Assembly: GCA_015063085.1 (NCBI GenBank)
Contig: SUTD01000008.1
Coordinates: 1 to 50,969 of the forward strand
DNA from: Methanocorpusculum parvum
GTDB lineage: Archaea > Halobacteriota > Methanomicrobia > Methanomicrobiales > Methanocorpusculaceae
Reading direction: 5' to 3'
DNA: 50,969 nucleotides
Below are positions 47,868-50,884 of this stretch, piece after piece; position 1 is the first letter of the stretch; the number at the start of each line of letters is the position of its first letter. The translations under genes were made by a program, and so were the position numbers. A model generated the notes under the pieces. The model saw nothing but the letters and a program-made list of their open reading frames with translations, was not told the origin of the DNA and did no database searches.

Positions 47868-48054
47868 TCTTCTCTATACATGTGCCGTACAATACAATAA
47901 AAGAACTGATTGGACGGCGGTGAAATTTCTTCCCGGTTTTATCCGCTGAATTTATACAGGCGATTTTGCAGAACGATGTATTGGATTCTGAAAGATTTTA
48001 AAAATATACATCTCGTCAGAAGTGTTTATATCAGATTCAGTCATATTTAGAAGT

Positions 48055-49272
48055 ATGCAGAAAAAGCACTTTGTACTTGCCGCAGCAGTACTCCTTTGTG
48101 CTGCAGTCGTCTTCTCAGCCGGCTGTATTGATGAGGGAGATTCTGATGTAAAAGTTGAGCTCCTGTATGTGGTCCCGGCAAACATGCCGCTGCTCTTAGA
48201 TTCCGGAGCTGTTGACGCAGCAATTACCTGGCAGCCGTTTGTCGCAGGTATTGAAGAAGCAAAGATTGGAAAAGTCATTTCTTACTCTGAGGACCTTCCG
48301 CCGGAAGGCAAATGGGAAGGACACACCTGCTGTGTGTTCGGTGCAAACTCCAATGCTCTGGCAAACCCTGAAATTGCCGCAGACATGACTGCACTGATGA
48401 TTCTTGGAAATGAATACATCACTGACAATCCGGCAAAGGCCGCAGATCTTATTGCAGACTGGCTCTTTGCAAAAGATGATTTAACCTACGGCGGTGTTAG
48501 TGTCAACTCTGTTGATGTCATGAAAGCATCGATTCCGACAATTCTCTTCTCCGGAGAGGTTACTGATGCATGGATTCAGAGCAACGAAGACTTCGTCCAG
48601 TCTCAGCGTGACTTAGGATTAGTTACCGGAAAGCTTGCAAACACCAACAGCGAAGAGACTGAAGCTCTGCTCTTTGACTTCTCTGCCTATGATGCAGCAC
48701 AGGACATTTTAGCGTCCGGCAAATTCTTAGAGCCGAAGACTGCAGTGAAGGAAATTTCCATCGGATACCTCGCATCTGACCACGACGGACCGCTCTTTGT
48801 CCTCTTAAAGGACTGGAAGTTCTTCAAGGACAACTACAACACCTACTTAAAGCCGGTCTCCGAGAAGGTTGGAAAGATTGACAAGGCAGAACTCTACGTC
48901 AACGGAAAGAAGGTCTGTGATGTAAAACTCATCGAAGGAAGCGCAGGTCCGCAGCTGATGACTCTTCTGCAGCAGAACCAGATTCAGTATGCTGTTGCTG
49001 GAACTCCGCCGTTTGTCTCCGCAGTCGACAAATCCACCAGCGCTGTTGACATCAAAATCTTAGCCCCGATTATGATGAACGGTTCCGGTCTTCTCGTCGA
49101 TGATGAATCCCCGGCAGATGACTGGGACAGCTTTATTGAATGGGTTAAGGAACGCAGTGCCGCAGGAAAACCTGTTGTAATCGCAGATCCGCAAAAAAGT
49201 TCTATTCAGGATGTCCAGTTAAAGGCAGCTCTTGACTCTGCCGGTATTGGTTATTCGGTAAAAGCCGCATAA
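48055..49272 (+). CDS. NitT/TauT-type ABC substrate-binding lipoprotein, apparently circularly permuted
   Basis: A 405-aa predicted lipoprotein (signal 1-23, lipobox SAGC with Cys24). Residues about 31-212 (VKVELLYVVPANMPLLLDSG, DAAITWQPF, SYSEDLPPEGKW, ALLFDFSAYD) look like the second half of the usual family. Residues about 232-405 (KEISIGYLASDHDGPLFVLL, YLKPVSEKV, GPQLMTLLQQNQIQYAVAGTPP, SIQDVQLKAALDSAGI) look like the first half. The sequence would read as one normal domain if the two were swapped. The ATG at 48055 directly precedes the basic signal start; TTTATATC at 48025 gives a short leader. It precedes permease and ATPase genes. Confidence 0.85.
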   Translation: MQKKHFVLAAAVLLCAAVVFSAGCIDEGDSDVKVELLYVVPANMPLLLDSGAVDAAITWQPFVAGIEEAKIGKVISYSEDLPPEGKWEGHTCCVFGANSNALANPEIAADMTALMILGNEYITDNPAKAADLIADWLFAKDDLTYGGVSVNSVDVMKASIPTILFSGEVTDAWIQSNEDFVQSQRDLGLVTGKLANTNSEETEALLFDFSAYDAAQDILASGKFLEPKTAVKEISIGYLASDHDGPLFVLLKDWKFFKDNYNTYLKPVSEKVGKIDKAELYVNGKKVCDVKLIEGSAGPQLMTLLQQNQIQYAVAGTPPFVSAVDKSTSAVDIKILAPIMMNGSGLLVDDESPADDWDSFIEWVKERSAAGKPVVIADPQKSSIQDVQLKAALDSAGIGYSVKAA

Positions 49273-49337: not shown

Positions 49338-50099
49338 ATGAAATGGTATACGAAGCTCATTCTCCCGATACTTGCTGTGGTTATCTGGGAGATTGCAGCG
49401 GTTCTGGTAAATAACCCCTATATTCTTCCGCGGGTTGAAGATGTATTCGCGGTTTTCTTAACTCCGTTTGCTGATATTTACGGAAGCGGGAGTTTAATCA
49501 GCAACGCGGTTGTCAGTATCACTCGTGTTGTAACCGGCTTTGTTATCGCATGCGTGATTGCTGTCCCGCTTGGAATTATTCTCGGACGCTATCCGAGACT
49601 TGAGAACTTCTGTGACGGATTAATTCAGATTCTCCGCCCGATTCCTCCTATGGCATGGGTTCCGCTTTCCCTCGCCTGGTTTGGAATCGGCATGACCTCG
49701 ATTGTGTTCATCATCGTGATTGGATGTTTCTTCCCGATTCTGGTAAACACCATCGACGGAGTGTCCCGTGTTAAGAAGAGCTGGCTTGAAACCGCAAAAA
49801 TCTATCAGGCAAATGACCGCCAGATTTTATCCAAGGTTCTCCTGCCGGCAGCAGGTCCTGCTATCTGCAACGGTCTGCGCCTTGGATTTGGTATTGCCTG
49901 GATGAGTGTGGTGGCCGCTGAAATGATGCCGGGAGCATCGTCCGGTCTTGGATACTTAATTATGTACACCTACAACTTCGGACAGGTTCACATCATTATC
50001 GCAGGAATGATTGCAATTGGTATCATTGGAATCGCTGCAGATCAGTTATTCCGCATTCTGCAGAAGAAGAAGTTCGCATGGGAGGCACTTGACAAATGA
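49338..50099 (+). CDS. ABC transporter permease (SsuC/TauC type)
   Basis: Membrane permease subunit of a NitT/TauT-family importer, 253 aa, with about six helices. The cytoplasmic coupling loop is visible around KSWLETAKIYQANDRQILSKVLLPAAGPAI (EAA-like loop, about 150-180). It stands 65 nt after the binding protein and overlaps the ATPase gene by four bases (ATGA). The substrate (nitrate, sulfonate, thiamine-precursor or other) cannot be told from sequence. Confidence 0.92.
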   Translation: MKWYTKLILPILAVVIWEIAAVLVNNPYILPRVEDVFAVFLTPFADIYGSGSLISNAVVSITRVVTGFVIACVIAVPLGIILGRYPRLENFCDGLIQILRPIPPMAWVPLSLAWFGIGMTSIVFIIVIGCFFPILVNTIDGVSRVKKSWLETAKIYQANDRQILSKVLLPAAGPAICNGLRLGFGIAWMSVVAAEMMPGASSGLGYLIMYTYNFGQVHIIIAGMIAIGIIGIAADQLFRILQKKKFAWEALDK

Positions 50100-50884
50100 C
50101 CGAAACCGATTGGGACAAAGTATGGGTGAAGGTGGAACACGCAACTAAGCAGTTCTTCACCAAGAAAGGTACGGTAACCGCGCTCGAAGATGTGAACTTA
50201 GAGGTTCATGACGGAGAGTTTGTCTGTCTGCTTGGCCCTTCCGGATGCGGCAAGACCACGCTTCTTCGCATGATTGGCGGTCTCGACGCTCCGACTGCCG
50301 GAACCGTTGAGATTGACGGGGAAATTGTAGATAAGCCGTCTCCGATGATGACTATGGTTTTCCAGGAGTATTCCCTTTACCCGTGGAGAACCATTGCAGA
50401 GAATGTCGGCTTTGGTCTTGAGATGATGAAGGTGCCAAAGGAACAGCGCCAGGCAAAGGTACAGGAGTATCTGGAGCTTGTCGGTCTTCAGGAGTTTGGC
50501 AACAGTTATCCTTATGAGCTTTCCGGCGGTATGCGCCAGCGCGCGGCAGTTGCCCGCGCTCTTGCAAGCGAGCCTGCTGTCATGCTCATGGATGAGCCGT
50601 TTGGCGCGCTTGATGCTCAGACCAGAAACAAGATGCAAAGAGAGCTTCTCGAAATCTGGGAGAAAACCAGGAAGACGATTCTCTTTGTCACCCACAGTGT
50701 TGACGAGGCGGTTTTCCTCGCAGATAAAATTGTGATTCTAACTCCAAGACCGGGCAGAATTCACGAGATTTACGAAAACCCGCTGCCGCGTCCGCGTGAC
50801 AGAACCAGTGTTGAGTTCGCAAGCCTCCGCAAAAAAGTTCTGCAGGTTATCGAGGAACTTGAGCAGGAGAATGCGAACCTTTAA
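50096..50884 (+). CDS. ABC transporter ATP-binding protein (SsuB/TauB type)
   Basis: ATPase subunit, 262 aa, with Walker A GPSGCGKTT (about 48-56), Q-loop VFQEYSLYPW, signature LSGGMRQRAAVARAL, Walker B VMLMDEPF and H-loop FVTHSVDEA. Typical of NitT/TauT importers. It is the last gene of the transporter operon and is followed by the ribosomal protein gene after 56 bases. Confidence 0.95.
   Translation: MTETDWDKVWVKVEHATKQFFTKKGTVTALEDVNLEVHDGEFVCLLGPSGCGKTTLLRMIGGLDAPTAGTVEIDGEIVDKPSPMMTMVFQEYSLYPWRTIAENVGFGLEMMKVPKEQRQAKVQEYLELVGLQEFGNSYPYELSGGMRQRAAVARALASEPAVMLMDEPFGALDAQTRNKMQRELLEIWEKTRKTILFVTHSVDEAVFLADKIVILTPRPGRIHEIYENPLPRPRDRTSVEFASLRKKVLQVIEELEQENANL

Follow-up and report, generated by a model that had tools for sequence, protein, structure and literature searches.

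The 50,969-nt contig SUTD01000008.1 of Methanocorpusculum parvum, referred to as the window throughout its full length, contains a gene for a circularly permuted substrate-binding protein, whose halves stand in swapped order relative to ordinary family members. We propose, with a probability of about 0.93, that the product is a lipid-anchored type II (Venus-flytrap) binding protein of the NMT1_2/SsuA-TauA family that serves the ATP-binding cassette (ABC) transporter encoded downstream.

A first-pass annotation, made from the sequence alone, had described the permuted order of the halves, and profiles and homologues agree with it. In the genome search, positions 150–247 of PF13379 matched bases 48133–48450, ahead of positions 36–148 at 48919–49248, and the window protein thus gave two stretches in swapped order instead of a colinear match; the best stretch in hmmscan aligned residues 231–398 with positions 5–148. 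Likewise, TIGR01728 (SsuA_fam) aligned residues 27–141 with positions 125–235 of its 290, at 48.9 bits against a curated cut-off of 163.5 bits, and NF040735 (SaoX) scored 30.5 bits against 300; no NCBIfam cut-off was reached by the window binding protein. In L036, an ordinary-order homologue from Aegiribacteria, residues 231–404 of the query aligned at residues 47–210 and residues 27–210 at residues 209–383. The same arrangement was found in L037, and in both homologues the end of the window protein (404) meets the start of its first segment (27), which is the junction that the annotation had foreseen.

Swapping the halves back merged the PF13379 match from two stretches scoring 74.8 bits, already above the gathering cut-off of 24.7 bits, into a single one of 84.1 bits (positions 6–247 of 252). 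Un-permuting two other permuted proteins also raised the score (L094, from 116.3 to 129.8; L101, from 117.3 to 122.5), whereas the same cut made in the ordinary protein L100 reduced the score (160 to 140 bits) and split the match in two. We also compared solved structures with profiles of the permuted relatives (A1), of a second permuted set (A2) and of ordinary archaeal relatives (A3). Positions 36–130 of A1 aligned to TauA 129–218, and positions 238–331 and 22–126 of A2 aligned to TauA 23–117 and NrtC 416–521, respectively, whereas A3 was colinear with NrtC, SsuA and others. A single-sequence search of the PDB returned only one row, at chance level. Together, these comparisons place both segments in one family, in swapped order and with the old termini joined, as in a circular permutant.

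The open reading frame (ORF) starts with the ATG at 48055 and ends with the stop codon at 49270–49272. Its product has 405 residues, or 11 more if translation begins at the in-frame GTG at 48022. Of the 37 aligned permuted relatives (A1 rows), 36 carry a lipobox pattern, as do 12 of the 16 A2 rows. The motif LLFDFS (residues 205–210) marks the old C terminus; the new linker that follows had been placed at about residues 212–232 in the first-pass annotation, which was correct as to its presence and slightly off in its position (Table 1), and the structure model predicts it to be partly helical, with a helix at residues 210–221. The HTCC of the window protein (residues 90–93, bases 48322–48333) belongs to an H[PTA]CC motif kept in 34/37 A1, 16/16 A2 and 28/29 A3 rows, and therefore common to permuted and ordinary forms; its adjacent cysteines might constitute a ligand or metal site.

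A confident single-chain structure model predicts elements that match those of ordinary relatives, in swapped order. No lobe was missing from the predicted structure, in keeping with the complete fold that had been anticipated, and the protein most likely adopts the usual two-lobed architecture with one cleft. Sequential structural matches of the model to type II proteins were weak, and Foldseek produced four rows at E ≤ 0.001, comprising three N-methyl-D-aspartate (NMDA) receptor chains and OpuAC, which leaves room for families not listed among them.

Table 1. Features of the permuted gene and its transporter operon in the window.
Feature	Coordinates	Strand	Evidence
Circularly permuted NMT1_2/SsuA-type substrate-binding lipoprotein, 405 aa	48055..49272	+	Profile and homologue alignments, structure model
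Signal peptide and lipobox SAGC, residues 1–24 (lipobox, 21–24)	48055..48126	+	Lipobox pattern
Second half of ordinary relatives, residues ~27–210, with HTCC	48133..48684	+	TIGR01728, PF13379, homologues
New linker, residues ~211–231, between the old C terminus and the old start of the mature chain	48685..48747	+	Alignments, model
First half of ordinary relatives, residues ~232–405	48748..49269	+	PF13379, homologues
ABC permease, BPD_transp_1; best NCBIfam SaoP, 183 of 295 cut-off	49338..50099	+	Profile search
ABC ATPase, NitT/TauT type; best NCBIfam SaoA, 271.8 of 360 cut-off	50096..50884	+	Profile search

The first-pass annotation had described a single permuted gene, but the permutation proved to be an old trait of many genomes, with further cases elsewhere. 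A class-level search gave matches in 140 of 232 genomes, and from the rows printed at least 111 of the 232 contained one match over 300 or more of the 405 residues, in the same order as the window protein (family codes f1, 31; f2, 1; f3, 8; f4, 12; f6, 59; f5, 0), which excludes chance. Methanocorpusculum is placed in the Methanomicrobiales, and matches from its own genus included G018, G010, G007, G002 and G023. The window genome is fragmented, with 36 contigs and 79.77% completeness, which could by itself suggest an assembly or annotation artefact. However, the order is shared by those 111 genomes, including the single-contig G014, G016, G040 and G060, which led us to reject an assembly artefact, and the conserved downstream genes also speak against this explanation, whose probability we consider negligible.

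Unlike the other five family codes, f5 (G036, G041, G046 and others) showed no permuted match among the rows listed, and a lineage-specific loss is possible. Two genomes contain two tandem permuted binding-protein genes, 46–55% identical to the query (L052:6070-8642 in G024 and L053:516-3194 in G022), and in G024 the pair precedes a permease and an ATPase. Outside the class, a Methanomicrobiales-type permuted gene was found on a 6.5 kb contig of G368, from family f10 (L093, L112), representing either transfer or contamination.

To the transporter genes of the window correspond permease and ATPase matches on one strand in 33 of 34 permuted loci, from 34 genomes of which several belong to one genus, the exception being L110; their position directly downstream of the binding protein was read by eye. 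A permease and an ATPase also neighbour the binding-protein gene of ordinary archaeal relatives. Pairwise dN/dS values (ratio of nonsynonymous to synonymous substitution rates; NG86) against five close relatives were 0.13–0.21 for residues 27–231 and 0.07–0.13 for residues 232–405, and both parts are under purifying selection. Because it is common to many methanogens and kept in a complete transporter operon, the window protein is probably a working receptor of an ABC importer, as the annotation had also supposed. Alternatively, the permuted protein might be a relic, degenerate or regulatory, with no remaining part in transport. This is very improbable given the low dN/dS of both parts and the permease and ATPase retained beside the permuted gene in 33 of 34 loci; additionally, no other PF13379 gene was found in the assembly of the window's genome, which is 79.77% complete, and hence no replacement receptor of that family was seen.

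With respect to the ligand, G355 contains a single same-strand cluster (L204:8615-15463) with the permuted gene, a cysteate synthase that exceeded its cut-off, and a fused sulfopyruvate decarboxylase, which scored above the cut-off of the alpha model and below that of the beta model. The cluster also holds a permease, an ATPase, an S-methyl-5-thioribose-1-phosphate isomerase and a second, ordinary-order NMT1-like protein of 292 aa, apparently without a signal peptide as judged by eye. An over-cut-off cysteate synthase occurred in 12 of the 19 genomes searched. In none of the 11 besides G355 was it seen close to the gene for the binding protein: the two were far apart on one contig in eight genomes and on different contigs in three (G028, G257 and G360), where closeness is possible. 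This gene content is a hint of a sulfonate ligand, not repeated in the other genomes searched.

The permuted gene probably arose from an ancestral gene duplicated in tandem and in frame, followed by loss of the front half of the first copy and the back half of the second. The cut falls directly behind the helix downstream of the SIQD motif and before the next strand of ordinary relatives, and a linker of around 20 residues joins the old ends. The resulting protein would be anchored by lipid at the cell surface, bind a small ligand outside the cell, possibly an anionic one (for example a sulfonate), and pass this ligand on to the permease and ATPase of the downstream genes.

The clearest case on mechanism among the permutants is L101:3371-4456, on contig 93 of G266 (an assembly in 220 contigs), whose mature part begins just before GIKTIADLKG and thus has a different cut. 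G266 was the only permuted genome among the four of its family, and L124, in the one-contig genome G239 of the same genus, has the ordinary order and is 70 and 84% identical. In the DNA alignment the flanks are conserved and the two parts of the gene have changed places, with ~31 bases left unaligned before and between the parts. The middle junction reads like an old C terminus, after which comes GTPKVKDTVKVGW, similar to GTPGVKDLVKIGW, where the mature part of the ordinary gene begins. Such a junction would be expected from a tandem duplication whose outer parts were lost. L101 seems to be a recent circular permutation, with a junction that looks like a tandem-duplication scar. Tandem duplication followed by loss of the outer halves, the route that the annotation had proposed for the window gene, is probable in its lineage by analogy with this junction.

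Alternatively, separate half-genes, or two different binding proteins, might have been fused in the opposite order. Fission and fusion is named as a main model in PMC3320104, and extra binding-protein genes do occur in such clusters, as with the 292-aa protein beside the permuted gene in G355. This protein, however, is not a half, because its match to the SsuA model is single and colinear (2–289 of 290). Moreover, both halves of the window protein have L100 as their nearest ordinary row, although in short alignments, and unrelated halves were judged unlikely on that basis. These observations, together with the in-place swap and the old-C-to-old-N junction of L101, make fission and fusion an unlikely origin, and tandem duplication the preferred one.

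A phylum search with A1 matched 195 of 294 genomes at E ≤ 1e-8 and revealed a second clade of permuted proteins, ~330–400 aa long and cut at the same place, in family codes f9, f26, f28 and f31 (L094-L099, L113, L118, L119, L125, L128, L134, L145 and L147-L149), which we take to be of the Archaeoglobus type. Among the ORFs read, a set biased towards relatives of the query, 82 were permuted, all with the main cut except L101, whereas 39 were ordinary and two partial, so that 81 share the main cut; no two-copy intermediate was noticed among those classed for order. One candidate intermediate, the 802-aa ORF L136:1193-3601 of G411, was rejected, consisting of one ordinary NMT1-like domain and an extension with a PEGA domain.

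We built a tree on un-permuted blocks from 79 rows (41 same-cut permuted, one other-cut and 37 ordinary), after removal of near-copies from 136. On this tree the same-cut rows required two changes and L101 a third, but a single clade of same-cut rows was not rejected by the approximately unbiased (AU) test (p 0.121), and long ordinary branches, flagged by the tool, make the tree uncertain. The main cut may have had one or two origins. It is reasonably probable that this archaeal receptor family was permuted repeatedly, with an old cut running through Methanomicrobiales and the Archaeoglobus-type families and another cut made recently in G266, the recent pair preserving the duplication junction.

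A search with A2 of the one bacterial phylum covered as a group, Pseudomonadota, to which the Kiloniellaceae genome G473 belongs, matched 96 of 299 genomes at E ≤ 1e-8, with no permuted case among the 30 loci read for order; 16 were ordinary, and 14 showed the back-half block only, at residue 163 or beyond, as in ordinary proteins. Searching two Aegiribacteria genomes and one of Kiloniellaceae gave one-piece matches in two of the three. A plasmid search matched 93 records, all below 60% identity.

The parent family of the window protein, according to PF13379, TIGR01728 and PDB profile matches, is that of SsuA, TauA, NrtA and CmpA (NitT/TauT type), from which it differs in its swapped halves, different termini and new linker. 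Among the titles and abstracts listed from open-licence PMC papers, none dealt with this family, which is not proof of absence, and the matching passage of PMC9732360 concerns engineered GFP. Natural permutation of binding proteins is already known. A circular-permutation family including glycine betaine-binding OpuAC/ProX, molybdate-binding proteins and CysB is reported in PMC2395249. In PMC4990184, TpMglB-2 (Tp0684) of Treponema pallidum is described as a glucose-binding lipoprotein and natural circular permutant of 'Type Ic / Cluster Bc', for which the authors proposed the suffix c and suggested that permutation possibly suits tethered proteins. TpMglB-2 resembles the window protein in being a naturally permuted ABC substrate-binding protein, is membrane-tethered and bilobed as the window protein is predicted to be, and differs in its Type I fold, its sugar ligand and its homologues, mostly from treponemes and Gram-positive bacteria. 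Also, its last 100 residues share only 13% identity with the first 100 of EcMglB, whereas both halves of the window protein are recognised by sequence profiles. If our interpretation is correct, a change in the position of the anchor on the fold may be favoured or tolerated in membrane-tethered proteins, in line with the proposal made for TpMglB-2.
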